This document shows positions 52,663 through 63,452 of a stretch of DNA of 64,000 nucleotides, piece by piece; the first letter of the stretch is position 1, and every line of letters begins with the position of its first letter. The stretch comes from Thermaerobacter marianensis (GTDB lineage: Bacteria; Bacillota; Sulfobacillia; DVGY01). The stretch is from contig DYGY01000002.1 of the NCBI GenBank assembly GCA_020724425.1, positions 102,662 to 166,661 of the forward strand, read 5' to 3'. Under the pieces are notes generated by a model. That model was not told where the DNA came from and made no database searches. It saw only the letters and a list, made by a program, of their open reading frames with translations. A program made the position numbers and the translations under genes.

Positions 52663-53910
52663 CTAATCCAACTCATTAACTAGGCCCAGAAAGAGAATCT
52701 CCTCGGTAGAACTATCATGAACCATGAAGAAAAATGGTCTATCCACTTTTAGGTTGAATTGACCTTCTGGCATACTAGTAACCGCTATCTCCACTGAAGT
52801 AGCGGCTGCTGCCTCAGTGCCTTTTTCATCAACTTTAATATATGACTTGTGTTTCACTTCACCGATAAATACTCTTTGATTATCATCCCAGGCCACCATG
52901 TCATAGAAATCCGCCATATTATCATCAAAGGCAACTGCCATACCCATAGCCTTCAGGACAGCAGTCAAACTCTGTTCATATTCCATTTCAAACCTTGGTA
53001 AAAGAAGGACACCATTAAGACTTCTAAATTCCTTTTGCCACTGACTCCACTCTTCCATACTGAACATATCGACAAACTCTTCTAGATTATCAGGCAAAAA
53101 CACATACATGGCCAGTCTTTCTTCTGTACCATAGGGCAACCGAACCGCTTCAAACTCTCCCTCTTTCTTCAGATATTCTGTCATTCCAGACCGATACATA
53201 AAAGGTACCTCAACGGTCTCACCTGACACATTATGAAAGACATCCATCCTTGTATCTCTAGAGTTAAATGCTTCACTCCAGTCCCCCTGAAAATATACCG
53301 TATTAATCAGAAACATAATAGTTTCAGGACTGATGGGATCTGCTATAATCTCTTTAATCATACCCTCTGTACTATCACTAACCCACCGGTTAATATCCTT
53401 AACAGCTTGACCTGAAGAAAAATCAAGCTCTGCTATCAATGCCTGATAGAAATATTCATTGCGCTCCAAGAAATCCCTATCAAACTGGATACCCTCTCTT
53501 AGCCACAACGAGTTCGCTATATTTAGCCTGACAGAGGGATCAGCTTCCTGCAGCAAAAATATAAGGGCGAGATTGTTCTTGTTAAATTTCTCTAGGTCAA
53601 CACCTGCAATACCTAGTACATCAGCCATGGCCTCTTGAGTATCTCCACTAGCCCCGTTATAGGTCATAGCAAGTGCTAGATAGATACTAGTCGGCGAAAT
53701 AAAGATATTCTTATCAGCCATCAGCTCCTGAAAAACTCTAACACCAAAATCATTAGAGTTAGCAGAGAGATTCTGATCAAAGGAAGCAAGAATCTCGGGG
53801 TCTACCTCCTCAAAATACATCTTACCACCGCTAGCTACCTGCTCCTGACAACCAGCGGCTGTTAAAGCAACTGCCACCAAAAGAACTAAAGACACAATGA
53901 ACTTCTTCAC
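52663..53910 (-). CDS. Serpin family protein, predicted lipoprotein
   Basis: Lipobox 'LTAAGC'; serpin 'NIFISPTSIYLALAMTYNGASGDTQEAM', hinge 'VDEKGTEAAAATSV', 'VDRPFFFMVHDSSTEEILFLGLV'. Confidence 0.95.
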   Translation of the reverse strand: MKKFIVSLVLLVAVALTAAGCQEQVASGGKMYFEEVDPEILASFDQNLSANSNDFGVRVFQELMADKNIFISPTSIYLALAMTYNGASGDTQEAMADVLGIAGVDLEKFNKNNLALIFLLQEADPSVRLNIANSLWLREGIQFDRDFLERNEYFYQALIAELDFSSGQAVKDINRWVSDSTEGMIKEIIADPISPETIMFLINTVYFQGDWSEAFNSRDTRMDVFHNVSGETVEVPFMYRSGMTEYLKKEGEFEAVRLPYGTEERLAMYVFLPDNLEEFVDMFSMEEWSQWQKEFRSLNGVLLLPRFEMEYEQSLTAVLKAMGMAVAFDDNMADFYDMVAWDDNQRVFIGEVKHKSYIKVDEKGTEAAAATSVEIAVTSMPEGQFNLKVDRPFFFMVHDSSTEEILFLGLVNELD

Positions 53911-55024: not shown

Positions 55025-57115
55025 ATGAAGACCCTACAAGAGAAAATAGCTGCTAGCCTTGCTGATTTAGATACCAGAGAAGCCCGTCGCAAAGGAGTTA
55101 TGGGTCATAGAGATAGAGTTATAGAAGTGAGTAAGGGGTTAGATGGCTTAAGAGAAGAACTGCGAGCAGCCAAACTAACAGTCCTTAACACAGAAGAATC
55201 TCTTAAGCACTATACAAACCTGGCTTCAGACAACCTTTTAGCCAATGGCTTTAAAGTCCATACCGCCAAAACCGCAAAGGATGCCTTAGAACAAATAGCC
55301 AAGATAGTTAGAAAAGGGCCTCTAGTTAAAGCCAAAACCAACCTGGGTAAGGAACTCGGTCTAACAGACCTCCTCAATGCTAGAGGAATTGAATATATTG
55401 AAACTGACTTGGGTGATCGCATTAATCAGCTAAATGGTACCCATTCTAGCCATACCCTGGCTCCAGCAATACAAATCAAAGAGGAACACATAGCTGAATT
55501 GTTTAAGAAAAGAGCCAAGGAAACCAACAAGGTTCTAGAAAGTACCGATGAACAATCTTTAGTCTCCTTTGCCAGAGAAGACTTAAGAGAATACCTGACA
55601 ACAGCCCCCTATGGTCTTTCCGGAGCCAATGCTATTGCAGCTGATACAGGCTCCATCATCCTAACCGAAAATGAAGGTAACATCAGAGCAGTAACCTCTC
55701 TGCCAGATGTTCATATAATCATTGCTGGAATAAATAAGATTGTGCCAACACTTGAAGACGGTATTAAAGTAGTTCAGGCTGCCTCCTCCTTTGGTGCCGG
55801 TCAGGAAATCGGCACCTACATAAACGTCATCTCTGCCCCAGGTAAGGAAATCGGGCCCAAAGAAGTACATGTAATTCTCTTAGATAACGGTCGTACCAAA
55901 GCAGTACAAGAGGGATTTGGTGAAGCCTTTACCTGTGTTAACTGTGGCAGCTGCTTAAACTTCTGCCCCGTCTACACCGTAGTCGGTGATGCCTATGGTC
56001 AAGATCTCCTCGGAGGCATAGGCCTCCTGCAAACATTCTTCATTCAAGGAAAAGAAGCAAGTATTGAACAAGGGTTATCCCTCTGTATCGGCTGTACCAA
56101 ATGCCTAGAATACTGCCCTGTGAAGATAGATACCCCACACATGATCTCAGAGGTAAAACAGGATATACCCGAAGAAAACTTCCTTAAGAATCAGCTATTA
56201 GACACAATAGCTAGACCAAAAAAACTTGATTCATTAACAAAACTCCTAAGGTTCTTTAACAGCTATAAGGATAACGCTTTTGTATCCAAAACCATCAACT
56301 TGCTCCCTTCTGATTGGCAGACCTATATCAGCATGCTCCCTCAAGATATAGCCAAACCAGTTACTCCAGAAGAAGCAGAGGGATACTCTAGAGGTGGAGA
56401 AATGATCCACTTCTTCCTTGGTTGTGTTATGAACAGCCTTTTTGCAGACATTCACAGAGATAGCCTCTATGTCTTAAGCAAAAATGATACCCGAATATCC
56501 TGTCCCACAGAGCAAGCCTGCTGTGGAGCTCTACACTTCCATGCCGGTGATAAAAGGACAGCAAAGGAGTTAGCCTTAAAAAATATCAAGGCATTTCCCG
56601 GGAAAGAACCAATCATCATTAACTCTGCCGGGTGTGGTGCCATGCTCAAAGACTATCCAAAACTATTTAGCGATAACCCAGAACTAAAAAGGAAAGCAGA
56701 ACAGTTCAGCTCCAGGGTAATGGATTTTTCTGAGTACCTCTCTCTTACCAAAAAAGACATACCCCAGAGCCTTAGCAAAAAAGTTACTTTCCATGATGCC
56801 TGTCATCTAGCATTAGCACAAGGCATCAAAGAACAACCTAGAGAGCTATTAAGAAATATTGATAACCTTGAGTTAGTAGAGATGCCGGATCGTAATGCCT
56901 GTTGCGGCAGTGGTGGTATCTATTCCCTTACCCATACAGATGTCTCTCGAGCACTCCTAGAAGAAAAGGTACAGGATGCAAAAACAGTTGAGCCCGATAT
57001 AGTGATTACAACTAACCCTGGCTGCTTAATGCACCTTAACTATGGTATGAAAGATACACCGACCTATCACCTAGCAACTATCCTAGCTAAAGCATATCGA
57101 GAGGGTGAAGAGTAA
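55025..57115 (+). CDS. LutB-LutA fusion: LUD domain, 4Fe-4S and CCG (cysteine-rich) domains
   Basis: LUD region 'GANAIAADTGSIILTENEGNIRAVTSLPDVHIIIAGINKIVPTLED', 'CVNCGSCLNFCPVY', 'CIGCTKCLEYCPVK', 'ACCGALHFHAGD', 'HDACHLA...NACCGSGGIYSLTH'. Confidence 0.87.
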   Translation: MKTLQEKIAASLADLDTREARRKGVMGHRDRVIEVSKGLDGLREELRAAKLTVLNTEESLKHYTNLASDNLLANGFKVHTAKTAKDALEQIAKIVRKGPLVKAKTNLGKELGLTDLLNARGIEYIETDLGDRINQLNGTHSSHTLAPAIQIKEEHIAELFKKRAKETNKVLESTDEQSLVSFAREDLREYLTTAPYGLSGANAIAADTGSIILTENEGNIRAVTSLPDVHIIIAGINKIVPTLEDGIKVVQAASSFGAGQEIGTYINVISAPGKEIGPKEVHVILLDNGRTKAVQEGFGEAFTCVNCGSCLNFCPVYTVVGDAYGQDLLGGIGLLQTFFIQGKEASIEQGLSLCIGCTKCLEYCPVKIDTPHMISEVKQDIPEENFLKNQLLDTIARPKKLDSLTKLLRFFNSYKDNAFVSKTINLLPSDWQTYISMLPQDIAKPVTPEEAEGYSRGGEMIHFFLGCVMNSLFADIHRDSLYVLSKNDTRISCPTEQACCGALHFHAGDKRTAKELALKNIKAFPGKEPIIINSAGCGAMLKDYPKLFSDNPELKRKAEQFSSRVMDFSEYLSLTKKDIPQSLSKKVTFHDACHLALAQGIKEQPRELLRNIDNLELVEMPDRNACCGSGGIYSLTHTDVSRALLEEKVQDAKTVEPDIVITTNPGCLMHLNYGMKDTPTYHLATILAKAYREGEE

Positions 57116-57615
57116 TGGAACTAAAAGAGAAACTAAAAGAAAAAAGGGTAAACCTTCACCTTATCAAAGAAGAAGAACTAGAAAACACCCTAGAAGCCAT
57201 AATACCACCAGATAGCAGGGTAGCAGTACACAAGGAATCTCTAGGAATATCCCTAAAACTTAATAGAGAGACTCTCTATACACCACTTCCTAAAGAGACC
57301 CTAACCAAAGCTACCCATGGGATTACCGGAGCCAGCTCAATCATAGCAGCTACAGGCACTATAGTCTTAAGTGAAACAGATGGTTATGGTCGTATCTTAA
57401 GTAATATGCCGGAAACCCATATAGTTATAGCAAGCACCCAAGCGATAGTACCTGATATGGCTGCCGCTTTAAAAGAGATTAGACAAACTGACTTCCCTCC
57501 CTATATCTCCTTTACTACCGGGCCAAGCCGGACAGCTGATATTGCCGGGAAGATTGTCCATGGTATGCATGGACCAAGAAAAGTTGAACTAATATTAATA
57601 GAGTACCGGCAATAA
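57115..57615 (+). CDS. LUD domain protein (LutC-like)
   Basis: 'GITGASSIIAATGTIVLSETDGYGRILSNMPETHIVIASTQAIVPDM', 'ISFTTGPSRTADI'. Confidence 0.9.
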   Translation: MELKEKLKEKRVNLHLIKEEELENTLEAIIPPDSRVAVHKESLGISLKLNRETLYTPLPKETLTKATHGITGASSIIAATGTIVLSETDGYGRILSNMPETHIVIASTQAIVPDMAAALKEIRQTDFPPYISFTTGPSRTADIAGKIVHGMHGPRKVELILIEYRQ

Positions 57616-57634: not shown

Positions 57635-58627
57635 TCAAGCATATAAATGGCAGGCCACATGATGACCACCACCAGCATCTAACCAGATTGGTTCATCAGT
57701 CTCACAAATCCTTCCCATCTTAACAGGGCAACGAGTATGAAAGCGACAACCCCTTGGTGGATTAATCGGTGAAGGTACCGTACCCTCAAGAATAATCCTT
57801 TCCTTCTTCTGACCGGAAACAACCGGAATAGCAGAAAGCAATGCTTTTGTATAGGGATGTCTTGGGTTGCTAAAGAGCTCATCACTATCTGCTAACTCAA
57901 CCACCTTACCCAAATACATAACAGCTATCCTATCACTGATATAGTAGATGACACTGAGATCATGAGCAATAAAGAGGTAGGTTAGCTTAAACTCATCCTG
58001 TAATCCCTCTAAGAGATCAATAATCTGTGCCTGAATGGATACATCAAGGGAAGACACAGGTTCATCAGCAACAATGAAACTAGGATGCATGGCCAAAGCC
58101 CTAGCTATCCCTATCCTCTGTCTCTGTCCCCCACTAAACTGATGGGGATATGAATCAATATGTCTCTCACTCAATCCCACTCTCACTAACAGATCTAGAA
58201 TCTCTAACTCTTTCTCTTTGTATCCCTTAACTCCCCTGCTAATTAACGGCACAGAGAGAATCTGTCTCACTGTAAGTCTTGGGTTCAATGACGCATAAGG
58301 GTTCTGGAAGATAATCTGTGCCTTCTGGCGATACTCCTTTAATTCTTTCTCTTCTAAAGAAGACACCTTCTCCCCCTCAAAATATATCTCTCCATCACTA
58401 GGGTCATATAAACGAATAATACTGCGACCTAAAGTTGTCTTCCCACAACCACTCTCACCCACTAAACCAAGAGTCTCCCCTTTATAAACCTGCAAATCTA
58501 CTCCATCAACAGATCTAATAACTATATCATCCTGCTTAAAGACACTCTTGGCCAAAAAGCTCTGTCTTTTATAGAAATATTTCTTTAACCCCTTTGTTTC
58601 CACTAATATCTCTCTATCCAAAGATAC
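57635..58627 (-). CDS. Oligopeptide/dipeptide ABC transporter ATP-binding protein (OppF-like)
   Basis: 'GLVGESGCGKTTLGRSIIRL', 'FSGGQRQRIGIARALA', C-terminal 'INPPRGCRFHTRCP'; the real start is probably at a GTG/TTG near 58618-58627 rather than 58687. Confidence 0.92.
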   Translation of the reverse strand, partial: VSLDREILVETKGLKKYFYKRQSFLAKSVFKQDDIVIRSVDGVDLQVYKGETLGLVGESGCGKTTLGRSIIRLYDPSDGEIYFEGEKVSSLEEKELKEYRQKAQIIFQNPYASLNPRLTVRQILSVPLISRGVKGYKEKELEILDLLVRVGLSERHIDSYPHQFSGGQRQRIGIARALAMHPSFIVADEPVSSLDVSIQAQIIDLLEGLQDEFKLTYLFIAHDLSVIYYISDRIAVMYLGKVVELADSDELFSNPRHPYTKALLSAIPVVSGQKKERIILEGTVPSPINPPRGCRFHTRCPVKMGRICETDEPIWLDAGGGHHVACHLYA

Positions 58628-58640
58628 CACCACCTTCCAC

Positions 58641-59627
58641 CTAAGTGTACAGGATACAACGCACCTGATGTCCTTTGTCAACTTCAATCATCTCTAACTC
58701 TGTGCCGATACATTCCCTCTTAGCATACTTGCATCGCTGATGAAATGGACAACCAGGTGGCATATTAATTAAATCCGGAACCGTTCCAGGTATGGCTTCA
58801 ATCTTCTTCCTTCTATCTTCAATTCGAGGAATTGAGTTAAGCAGTCCTTGGGTATACGGATGAGCGGGTTCCTCCACTAGAGTCCTTGTTGGTCCCTGTT
58901 CTAGAACCAGACCAGCATACATAACTACCATTCTGTGGGTAAATTCCGCTGCTACACCTAGATCATGGGTAACAAGGATAATGGTAGTGCCATGTTCCTC
59001 ATTAATTCGATTTAGAAGTTCAAGTATCTGAGCCTGGATGGTTACATCCAAAGCAGTTGTTGGCTCATCAGCTAAAAGAAGTTGAGGTTCACCTGCCAAA
59101 GCAATAGCTATTAAAGCTCGCTGTTGCATCCCGCCACTAAACTGATGTGGATACTCAAGATATCTAAGATCAGGCGAAGGTATTCCCACCTCAGCCATAA
59201 GCTCCAATACCCTCTCTCTTTCTCTATCTTTACGGTCACTGAAAAACCACTTGCGTTCACCCTTAATCAAACCATGGATCCTTAAAGCCTCCCGAATCTG
59301 TTCTCCCACAGGAAAAACAGGATTAAGGGTAGTCATCGGATCCTGAAAAACCATCGAAATATCCTTACCCCGGAGCATTCTCATCTCCCGATCACTCTTT
59401 TTTAAGAGATTATCTCCATTAAAGTTAATCTCACCAGAAACAATCTCACCTGGTTTGGGCACCAGCCTTAACATGGAAAGAAGTGACATACTCTTTCCCG
59501 AACCCGACTCCCCTACAATACCAAGGATCTCACCCTTATTGGCACTAAGAGTTAAACCATTGACCGCTTTCACCAGTCCCCGTGAACTAGGAAACTGCAC
59601 TCTTAAATCTTTTACATCTAATAGCAT
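58641..59627 (-). CDS. Oligopeptide/dipeptide ABC transporter ATP-binding protein (OppD-like)
   Basis: 'GIVGESGSGKSMSLLSMLRL', 'FSGGMQQRALIAIALA', 'INMPPGCPFHQRCKYA'. Confidence 0.94.
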   Translation of the reverse strand: MLLDVKDLRVQFPSSRGLVKAVNGLTLSANKGEILGIVGESGSGKSMSLLSMLRLVPKPGEIVSGEINFNGDNLLKKSDREMRMLRGKDISMVFQDPMTTLNPVFPVGEQIREALRIHGLIKGERKWFFSDRKDRERERVLELMAEVGIPSPDLRYLEYPHQFSGGMQQRALIAIALAGEPQLLLADEPTTALDVTIQAQILELLNRINEEHGTTIILVTHDLGVAAEFTHRMVVMYAGLVLEQGPTRTLVEEPAHPYTQGLLNSIPRIEDRRKKIEAIPGTVPDLINMPPGCPFHQRCKYAKRECIGTELEMIEVDKGHQVRCILYT

Positions 59628-59640
59628 AGCTTCAACTCCT

Positions 59641-60552
59641 CTAATCCTTCTTCAATCTAGGATCAAGGACATCCCGTAACCCTTCACCAAAGAGATTGAT
59701 ACTTAAAACCAAGATGACAATAGCCAGACCGGGTAGAGTAGATATCCACCAAGCATTAAGAATATAATCTCGACCATCAGCAACCATGGTACCCCAGGCA
59801 GGAATCCTTGGTGGCACACCAATACCCAGAAAACTCAAAGATGCTTCAGTGATAATCATATAACCCATTCGCAAGGTGGCTAGAACCAACACCGAATGAA
59901 AGATATTTGGAACTATTTCAAGCGTGATAATCTCTTTGCTGCTCCTCCCTAAAGCCCTAGCAGCTTCAATATACTCCTTGGTCATCTCAGACATGATTTC
60001 CCCTCGTACCAGTCTGAAAAACTCAACCCAAGCCTTAAAAGTCAAAGCCACAATCAAATTCCAAAAACCAGGTCCCAAAATAGCCATCACAAAAATAGTG
60101 AATATCAAAAAGGGAAAAGCCATCAACAACTCAGAAAATCTTGAAAGCACAGTATCAAAGAATCCTCGGTAGTATCCGGCAATAGCTCCAAGAACAAAAC
60201 CCACAAAAACCGATATAGCTATAGAGATAACTCCCACCAACAAACTAACCCTGCTACCATAGATAATCCTGCTAAGTATATCCCTACCAAGATAATCAGT
60301 CCCCAGTGGATACTCACTAGTTCCTCCCTCAAAAGCCATAGGCGGTAACAAGCGATTGGATATACTCTGCTTATTCGGATCATGAGGAGCAATAAAGGGA
60401 GCAAAAATAGCCATAAGGATATAAATAATGAGAATAACTAGACCTAATACAGCTAAAGGATGCTTCCTGAATCTTCTCCAAAAATCTTTTGTGTTCTGCC
60501 ACCATAATCTTGAACTATCTCTTAAGATCTCTTTTCCTTCTGATAAAGTCAT
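59641..60552 (-). CDS. Oligopeptide/dipeptide ABC transporter permease (OppC-like)
   Basis: 'YPLGTDYLGRDILSRIIYGSRVSLLVG', EAA loop 'EYIEAARALGRSSKEII'. Confidence 0.94.
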   Translation of the reverse strand: MTLSEGKEILRDSSRLWWQNTKDFWRRFRKHPLAVLGLVILIIYILMAIFAPFIAPHDPNKQSISNRLLPPMAFEGGTSEYPLGTDYLGRDILSRIIYGSRVSLLVGVISIAISVFVGFVLGAIAGYYRGFFDTVLSRFSELLMAFPFLIFTIFVMAILGPGFWNLIVALTFKAWVEFFRLVRGEIMSEMTKEYIEAARALGRSSKEIITLEIVPNIFHSVLVLATLRMGYMIITEASLSFLGIGVPPRIPAWGTMVADGRDYILNAWWISTLPGLAIVILVLSINLFGEGLRDVLDPRLKKD

Positions 60553-60563
60553 CCAACCACCCC

Positions 60564-61577
60564 CTACAACTCAATTTTCGGATTAAGATTAGTATACAGA
60601 ATATCCACAATCAGATTAGCCACCACAAAAGTCAGAGCATACAACATAACAGCTCCCTGAACCAGAGGATAATCTCTACCATAAATAGCATCAACAACAA
60701 GTCTACCTAGTCCAGGCCAAGAGAAAACCTGCTCAACAATCATGTTCCCACCAAGCAGAACACCAACCTGTAGACCAACAACTGTAATTACAGGAATCAA
60801 AGCATTTCTTAAAGCATGCTTAGTAACCACAGCCCATTCAACCAGACCTTTGGCTCTTGCCAAAGTTACATAGTCCTGTTCCAAAACCTCAATCATGCTT
60901 GATCTGACAACCCTAGCGACAATAGCCATCAGATTAGCCCCTAGAGTAAACCCAGGCAAAAGTAAATGCCTAACACTGCTTTTAAAGGCCTCTAGGTTAC
61001 CCGTCAGAATACTATCAAGGGTATATATCCCCGTTATTGTCTTTAGTTCAACAAAATGATCAAGCCTTCCCTGAGTAGGCAACAGACCCCAATTAACACC
61101 AAAAAGAATAATCAATACTAACCCCAACCAGAAAGCCGGCATTGATATACCTAGAAAAGCCCATCCCATAGTAATCCGATCAAGCCAAGAATTTCTCTTT
61201 ACCGCTGAGAGAATACCAATAGGGACACCTAAAAGAAGAGCAATAACTATCGCTGCTAAAGCTAACTCAATAGTAGCTGGTAAAGCCCTTAAGATAACAT
61301 CCTTAACCGGTGCATTAAACATATAAGAGTTGCCTAAGTCTCCTTTAAGAATCCCACCAAGGAAACTAAGCAACTGACTCCCAAAAGGTTCATCTAAACC
61401 CATAGACTCTCGAATCATACTCATTTCCGCTTCAGTAGCTAGAGAATCTCCCATCATGATGTCTACAGGATCACCCGGCAACATCCTCATGAAGACAAAA
61501 ACTAGGATAGCCACTCCTAGCATTAAGGGAATCGTTGCCAGTATACGTTCCAAAACCTTTATCTTCTTCACATACAT
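60564..61577 (-). CDS. Oligopeptide/dipeptide ABC transporter permease (OppB-like)
   Basis: 'RILATIPLMLGVAILVFVFMRMLPGDPVDIMMG', EAA loop 'DYVTLARAKGLVEWAVV'; Met16 of the ORF preferred. Confidence 0.94.
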   Translation of the reverse strand: MYVKKIKVLERILATIPLMLGVAILVFVFMRMLPGDPVDIMMGDSLATEAEMSMIRESMGLDEPFGSQLLSFLGGILKGDLGNSYMFNAPVKDVILRALPATIELALAAIVIALLLGVPIGILSAVKRNSWLDRITMGWAFLGISMPAFWLGLVLIILFGVNWGLLPTQGRLDHFVELKTITGIYTLDSILTGNLEAFKSSVRHLLLPGFTLGANLMAIVARVVRSSMIEVLEQDYVTLARAKGLVEWAVVTKHALRNALIPVITVVGLQVGVLLGGNMIVEQVFSWPGLGRLVVDAIYGRDYPLVQGAVMLYALTFVVANLIVDILYTNLNPKIEL

Positions 61578-61628
61578 CCCCCCACCTAAGCTGGGAGGGA
61601 CCCCGCAAAAGGGTCCTCCCACAGCATA

Positions 61629-63206
61629 CTAATCATTTACCCTATATCCCGCTTCTCTTAAAAGCTCCTTTGCTTTTTCAGGATTATATGAATATGGCTC
61701 TAAATCTGGATCATAACCAAATCCACTGGGCAAAAAGGCGGTAGACAAACGATGTGCTCTTCCCTGATACAACTCAGTAAGAATCTCATCCCAGTTAACA
61801 GCATAGTTAATTGCCTGTCTTACTCTAACATCATCAAAAGGTTCCTTAGCAGTATTAAACTCCAAACCATAAACCCTAGTTCCCTCTGCAGTCATCACAT
61901 TGACTCGTGGATCAGCCTCTAACCTTGGAGCCAAATCTTCAGGAACCATCTGGATAATATGAACCTCACCTGCTAACAAAGCAGATACCCTGGTAGAAGG
62001 CTCAGGCATATTCTTAAAGATTACCTTCTTAACAGGTTCCTTACCTGACTTCTTCAAATCGGGAGAACCACCATAATAGCCATCAAAACGCTCTAACACA
62101 ATCTGGTCATCTAAACGACCACTAACATACTTATATGGTCCTGTACCCACTGGATTTTCGGCCAACCCCTTAGCTCCAACTTCTTCAACGTAGTCCTTAG
62201 GAACAATCTGGGTGTGAACAAGAAGCTGCAAAAACACCGGAAACGATTCAGAAAGAGTAAAGCGTACCTGATAATCATCTATCTTCTCCACACTCTCCAA
62301 CGGCCCTAACAAACCCAACCTCGGTGAAGGCATACCATCAATGCCATCCGGTGCCATAATTCTCTCAAAGGTAAAGACCACATCATCAGCAGTCATCTTC
62401 TGACCATTATGGAAATAGACATCATCCCTTAATACAAACTCATAAACAGTAGGTTCAGGATTAGTCCAAGACTTAGCTAACTCAGGTACAACCTCACCAT
62501 CCGGAGTCCTTGTTACCAGACCATCATAGATATTGCGAATGACTGTTTCAGTCTCCCTATCACGATAATTAGCAGGATCAAGAGTTAGGATCTTATCACT
62601 TCTTAGACCCACTACAATGGTGTCACCCTCAGTAAGGGCAACATTATGAAGATTTATCCTGGTATCCATGCTAGGCTCCCAGTTCTGCACCTTTATCGAA
62701 GCAGCCTCAATAGAATCCTTATAGTACCCAAAAATCCATGGTGCATCTTCATGAATCAGCTGTTGTGCTTGAACATAGGCTTCATATCTTGCCTCTTCAG
62801 TAAACCCAGTTGAGCCCTGCATCAACAAAGCATCAACCTCCGAATTACTATAAAAAGAAAAATTCCCTCTATCATCGGTCTTTAGCTTCGGTACTGCCAG
62901 GTCATAGGGATCAAAAGTGGCACTACCCCAGTCACTGGTATAAACCTGCCTCTCACCAGCTAATATAGATTCCCTCAACGTATTCCATTCCCAAACACGG
63001 ACCTCAGCGTCAACCCCAATTTCCCTTAGATACCCGGCAATAGCATCTGCCTCAGCTTTACGGTCAGGTATACTATCAATCACAATTGACAACGTCTTAC
63101 CATCAGCCCCTGTCTGCTCCGTGGAATTTCCACAACCTCCTACCAAAAGGCCGACCATCAAAATGACGACCAACGTGGTTAGCAATACAGGATAGCGAAA
63201 TCTCAC
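61629..63206 (-). CDS. ABC transporter substrate-binding lipoprotein (SBP_bac_5/family 5) with apparent circular permutation
   Basis: Lipobox 'LVGGC'; aa ~38-191 resemble the usual C-terminal part of SBP_bac_5 and aa ~195-525 resemble the usual N-terminal and middle parts, ending at 'NPEKAKELLREAGYRVND*'. Confidence 0.85.
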   Translation of the reverse strand: MRFRYPVLLTTLVVILMVGLLVGGCGNSTEQTGADGKTLSIVIDSIPDRKAEADAIAGYLREIGVDAEVRVWEWNTLRESILAGERQVYTSDWGSATFDPYDLAVPKLKTDDRGNFSFYSNSEVDALLMQGSTGFTEEARYEAYVQAQQLIHEDAPWIFGYYKDSIEAASIKVQNWEPSMDTRINLHNVALTEGDTIVVGLRSDKILTLDPANYRDRETETVIRNIYDGLVTRTPDGEVVPELAKSWTNPEPTVYEFVLRDDVYFHNGQKMTADDVVFTFERIMAPDGIDGMPSPRLGLLGPLESVEKIDDYQVRFTLSESFPVFLQLLVHTQIVPKDYVEEVGAKGLAENPVGTGPYKYVSGRLDDQIVLERFDGYYGGSPDLKKSGKEPVKKVIFKNMPEPSTRVSALLAGEVHIIQMVPEDLAPRLEADPRVNVMTAEGTRVYGLEFNTAKEPFDDVRVRQAINYAVNWDEILTELYQGRAHRLSTAFLPSGFGYDPDLEPYSYNPEKAKELLREAGYRVND

Positions 63207-63452
63207 AGTATCGACTCCCTTCTCCAGTAGAATGTGTAATATATTTCCCTTCTCGAAAGAAGCCCTGATATCCTGCCCAATCTGTCATTTTTCGTTATTT
63301 TGTTGACTAATTTGTACATAATCAAAAGAAAAGTCCGTGAGCTTAACATCTTGCCAAAGACAAGATTGAAACACAATTTGCCATCGTAAACTACCCCCCA
63401 CTAAGAGGAGAGGGCTTTGAAAGAAGTTTGACTAAGAACCTGCATTCCCGGT

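Follow-up and report, generated by a model that had tools for sequence, protein, structure and literature searches.

Circular permutations of natural proteins are usually regarded as rare, old and single events. In the family-5 (cluster C) substrate-binding proteins (SBPs) DppA and OppA, both normal termini lie in the first lobe. A natural permuted ABC binding protein has been described in Treponema pallidum, where TpMglB-2 (Tp0684) was classified as 'Type Ic / Cluster Bc' (PMC4990184). It was shown to bind its ligand and to close, and its authors suggested an adaptation to tethering (PMC4990184). TpMglB-2 was the only natural permuted SBP that our literature search found, and the search returned no paper linking circular permutation with OppA or family-5 proteins; subscription papers were outside its scope, so that an earlier report is possible.

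Here we describe a permuted SBP gene in a window of 64,000 nucleotides, the whole stretch analysed, from Thermaerobacter marianensis (contig DYGY01000002.1). A first-pass annotation had described the gene as an SBP_bac_5 peptide-binding protein with its two parts in swapped order, and its coordinates (61629-63206) and quoted residues were correct on re-check. The gene is organized as follows:

63215..63219, minus strand: ribosome-binding site GGGAG, 8 nt upstream of the GTG, read from the sequence
61629..63206, minus strand: circularly permuted family-5 substrate-binding lipoprotein, 525 aa, GTG start (Pfam, phmmer, AlphaFold2, structural alignments)
63132..63206, minus strand: signal peptide and lipobox LVGGC (Cys25), read from the sequence and by lipobox pattern scan
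62634..63095, minus strand: C-block, aa 38-191, equivalent to DppA ~342-505, normally the C-terminal third (sequence and structure alignments)
62613..62633, minus strand: linker of a few residues, ~aa 192-198, LTEGDTI, that connects the former C- and N-termini
61632..62624, minus strand: N-block, aa 195-525, equivalent to DppA ~1-344, ending at LLREAGYRVND, the normal inter-block loop (Pfam, phmmer, structural alignment)

The canonical cluster C chain has the N-block before the C-block. In the window protein the lipobox is followed by the C-terminal third (aa ~38-191) and then by the N-terminal two thirds (aa ~195-525), and the lipid anchor, as read from the sequence, now precedes the former C-terminal block. 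The motif LVGGC at aa 21-25 matched the lipobox pattern; the modification itself is predicted. Pfam detected SBP_bac_5 (PF00496) in two stretches, with 301.3 bits against a curated cut-off of 32.4. This was the sole family matched up to E = 1, and no homology to cluster B sugar-binding proteins was found within that limit. Searching PDB sequences with phmmer gave two matches per chain in exchanged order: for 6ofq, query residues 201-521 aligned to 36-369 and residues 55-176 to 390-516, and 5u4o and 3m8u behaved likewise. For the C-block alone (154 aa), matches were confined to the C-terminal third of family-5 proteins, e.g. 3m8u 358-495. The annotation had anticipated two HMM hits, C-part first and N-part second; Pfam provided the two stretches and phmmer their order.

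AlphaFold2 (AF2) modelling of the mature window chain together with 22 relatives resulted in one confident fold (pLDDT 92.2, pTM 0.87), in which low confidence was restricted to residues 1-10, in line with the complete binding-protein fold that had been expected. With sequential structure aligners, model residues 167-501 matched the first ~340-360 residues of known structures, residues 171-501 aligning to 1dpe 1-344. The scores were Z 28.1 (rmsd 2.0 over 319) for 1uqw and Z 25.9 (rmsd 2.6 over 322) for 1dpe. Such aligners are unable to align both blocks together, and the C-block was hence modelled and searched alone. Its pLDDT of 75.9 was lower than that of the whole chain, as expected for a domain piece that needs the N-block. 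The separate model aligned to 1dpe 342-505 and 1uqw 322-479, and 5u4o was matched with Z 11.9. Coverage of 1uqw was complementary, with 3-324 from the whole-chain model and 322-479 from the C-block model, and the 1dpe ranges together comprise the complete two-lobed cluster C fold. Because these two ranges abut, the break falls at DppA 342-344, where the KELLREAGY helix gives way to the strand that follows, which agrees with the proposal that the new termini lie in the loop after KELLxEAGY. This point is in what we take to be the second lobe of DppA and OppA.

The permuted order is not confined to the window. Full-length collinear orthologues with 53-64% identity were present in 13 of the first 60 related genomes searched, some of them single-contig, and the public genome set added Moorella mulderi DSM 14980 (type strain) and one Limnochordaceae MAG. 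Sampling comprised 154 genomes of the class and 398 of the phylum, and other phyla through plasmids only. Across the 398 genomes, 25 loci exceeded 740 bits at full coverage (versus 515 for the top normal-order protein), and a permuted family-5 SBP was encoded in 31 of the 154 genomes of the class. The order was checked with one HMM for each block and was confirmed in every fetched case. Altogether ~50 genomes, several of them single-contig, share it, mostly within the same SBP-OppBCDF operon, so that the search for orthologues of like order suggested by the annotation was positive. In all permuted proteins the chain begins at the strand after the EAGY motif and stops no more than a few residues from that motif, with a short linker between the former termini. 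The two other family-5 SBPs that this query matched in the window's own genome are in normal order. No permuted copies were detected on plasmids: out of 4,218 plasmid records, the 25 ranked best each gave two separate matches, and the two best records, when fetched, had the normal order. In Desulfofundulus thermosubterraneus DSM 16057 (L038, 4840-5660) we observed a broken permuted SBP, of which the last ~190 N-block residues are left, fused downstream of the first part of another gene (DUF4387-like, by eye) and followed by OppB and OppC. A permuted orthologue in genome G005 (L014, 1315-3051) carries an in-frame TAG in the C-block and is either a pseudogene or a sequence error.

Permuted and normal proteins were placed in common trees after in silico restoration of the normal order. 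The permuted proteins were scattered over group A (window, Moorella, Limnochordaceae and others, with L020, L191 and L190 as divergent members), L018, group B (permuted members L019, L021, L023 and L144) and L083 from genome G418; group A, group B and L083 each stood among normal-order relatives. The first trees had placed L020 and L030 apart from group A, and both joined it once L190 and L191 were added. AU tests rejected a single clade of all permuted proteins (p = 8e-51), of B with L083 (p = 1e-7) and of A with L018 (p = 0.0017 and 0.0054); for the group B permuted proteins as a single clade, p was 0.051 and 0.050. N-block and C-block trees agreed on the A/B split, each group having normal and permuted members. 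The same split appeared in a tree of the neighbouring OppB and OppC genes, which the rearrangement does not affect. Several permuted proteins were nearest to a normal-order relative. After reordering, L018 is 65% identical to normal L071 versus 55% to the permuted window protein, L019 is 67% identical to normal L032 versus 61% to permuted L021, and the window protein is 56% identical to normal L065. All outgroups examined had the normal order. There is good support for the chain having been permuted independently at this one loop three times or more (group A, group B, L083). L018 is likely a fourth case, resting on p = 0.002-0.005, and the upper reading would perhaps be six; gene conversion between genes of the two orders might make the origins seem more numerous than they are. 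The permutation is old, widespread and recurrent.

Might pieces of a normal gene have been joined in the wrong order during assembly or binning? The window stems from a 45-contig draft genome, but identical order and joins in the ~50 independent genomes, including the single-contig ones and the type-strain isolate, mostly in the same operon, make such an artefact practically negligible. The reading frame in the window is also intact and has a single signal peptide and a single stop, and between the SBP stop codon and OppB there is no second C-block. Concerns about misassembly or a hidden second copy, raised with the annotation, were thus dispelled. Both blocks are swapped, complete and not duplicated, and together with the complementary structural coverage and the conserved order this upholds a true permutation over a truncation: the window protein is a genuine circular permutation. 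The scattered tree might alternatively reflect one ancient permutation followed by returns to normal order or by segment shuffling. The identical break in all cases would fit such a history, and the group B permuted proteins alone might just form one clade (p ~0.05). We nevertheless consider it improbable, given the rejection of the all-permuted clade and of B with L083, the normal order of the outgroups and the concordance of the N-block, C-block and OppBC trees; each exact reversion would, moreover, require a second permutation.

Tandem duplication followed by trimming is a plausible route to the permuted gene, in which fusion of the copies would have been followed by loss of the flanks. Among the matches listed in a C-block scan of the 154 genomes, none was a C-N-C or N-C-N gene. 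Standalone C-block ORFs were considered as intermediates, and those in G479, G480 and G535 proved to be broken normal-order genes, whereas those in G002 and G482 were located at contig ends. The normal copy in G003, considered as parent of the permuted gene there, was rejected as such, sharing only 32% identity with it. A tandem pair of closely similar normal-order family-5 SBP genes was seen at L082 (G404:C31:28500-33500), a layout that could give rise to a permuted gene.

Downstream of the SBP gene, the window encodes the remaining importer components:

60564..61577, minus strand: OppB-type permease, ATG at 61577 likelier than the listed GTG at 61622
59641..60552, minus strand: OppC-type permease
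58641..59627, minus strand: OppD-type ATPase
57635..58687, minus strand: OppF-type ATPase, start uncertain

This SBP-B-C-D-F layout of Opp/Dpp-type importers was found in the window and in most relatives, and permuted proteins and normal sisters occur in operons of this one type with shared neighbours. Neighbouring genes were examined at three group A loci, L114 and L123 (permuted) and L133 (normal). Pfam identified Peptidase_C26 among them, GntR-UTRA regulators beside L123 and L133, and octopine-dehydrogenase, amidohydrolase and MutL/B12-binding protein genes beside L114; octopine-dehydrogenase-like and MutL-like proteins were recognized by eye beside L133. Since operons and neighbours are common to both orders, the role is probably the same with either topology. 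In the window, LutB/LutC-like (LUD domain) genes and an HdrD-like iron-sulfur part (55025-57615, plus strand, by eye) are convergent with the Opp operon, and a lipoprotein-like ORF (52663-53910, minus strand) resembles a bacterial serpin by eye only. A further Opp operon in this genome (L136, contig C44) has the order D-F-SBP-B-C and a normal-order SBP.

The dipeptide-binding residues of DppA are R383 and D436 in precursor numbering, the Arg and Asp binding the peptide carboxylate and amine (PMC12136057). Read off our alignment, they correspond to R355 and D408 of the mature protein. Their equivalents are kept in group B and absent in group A, in permuted and normal members alike: group A lacks the RPYNP segment, and a small residue replaces the Asp (Ala in the window protein). 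In these residues the window protein does not match the DppA-type dipeptide binders. Of the label 'peptide-binding protein', family-5 membership stands, but the peptide part is doubtful because both residues are missing from group A. A simple dipeptide is an improbable ligand of the window protein, and from the neighbouring genes one might guess at a gamma-glutamyl or opine-like compound.

Sequence, predicted fold, operon setting and conservation together make it highly probable that the window protein is a working, membrane-anchored family-5 SBP with a circularly permuted chain that serves the adjacent OppBCDF-type importer. The two swapped blocks would fold into a normal two-lobed binding protein, with the former termini joined by a few residues and with the new termini, and the lipid anchor at the N-terminus, in the turn that links helix and strand at DppA 342-344. 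Ligand would be bound by the usual flytrap motion, and docking on OppBC may proceed as in the normal-order sisters, with the tether at a different surface point. The annotation had suggested that hinge dynamics, secretion order or docking to OppBC may be altered by the new termini. The same permutation appears to have arisen independently at least three times, in group A, group B and L083, probably owing to the proximity of the normal termini and the tolerance of this turn for a break.

A role as sensor or decoy instead of transport component, or decay of the gene, is very unlikely. The broken Desulfofundulus copy and the TAG inside L014 would agree with decay, but at most loci the permuted gene is the sole SBP gene of its SBP-B-C-D-F operon, and 53-64% conservation is retained across families. 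Whether the permutation is itself an adaptation to membrane tethering, with the anchor moved to another lobe, as proposed for TpMglB-2 (PMC4990184), appears doubtful. The lipobox of the window, Moorella, group B and L083 proteins and the new N-terminus at about residue 342 of the normal chain are consistent with this idea. However, a sizeable group A subgroup (families f89 and f102, Limnochordaceae) seems to lack a lipobox before the C-block and looks secreted via a plain signal peptide (pattern and eye), and lipoproteins also predominate among the normal-order relatives, whose median linker is the same (15 vs 15.5 residues). As to a wider meaning of the permuted chain serving its importer, we lean slightly towards family-5 proteins being prone to this one permutation: four to six origins in one phylum at the same turn would have left permuted and unpermuted pairs in equivalent operons, the lipid anchor moved to the other lobe and the transporter unchanged.

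A fold that was repeatedly permuted at a single site and has unpermuted sisters of 56-67% identity in the same kind of operon offers replicated natural controls for the effects of chain order, export order and anchor position, including the tethering idea for TpMglB-2. The break site is permissive and could be of use in sensor design. For annotation the case is a warning, as local HMM matches conceal a swapped order in a very large family. With DppA, OppA and GsiB (1dpe, 1ola, 1uqw) the window protein shares both blocks, the predicted fold and the operon partners; it differs in block order and anchor position, and group A lacks the equivalents of DppA R355 and D408. The normal sisters L065-L068 and L071 (group A) and L032 and L033 (group B) are close relatives after reordering but are not permuted; they belong to the same operon type, with shared neighbour genes where examined. 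Like TpMglB-2, the window protein is a naturally permuted lipoprotein of an ABC importer, and in both types the new termini lie in one lobe and many species are involved. Compared with that precedent, the cluster C case and its recurrence are new as far as our search found no earlier report. TpMglB-2 has a cluster B sugar-binding fold in which ~70-100 residues moved from front to back, with an extra fourth hinge crossing, whereas in the cluster C (family 5) type described here ~155 residues moved from back to front with a break in one turn, apparently from several origins and with closely related normal-order proteins in operons of like type.
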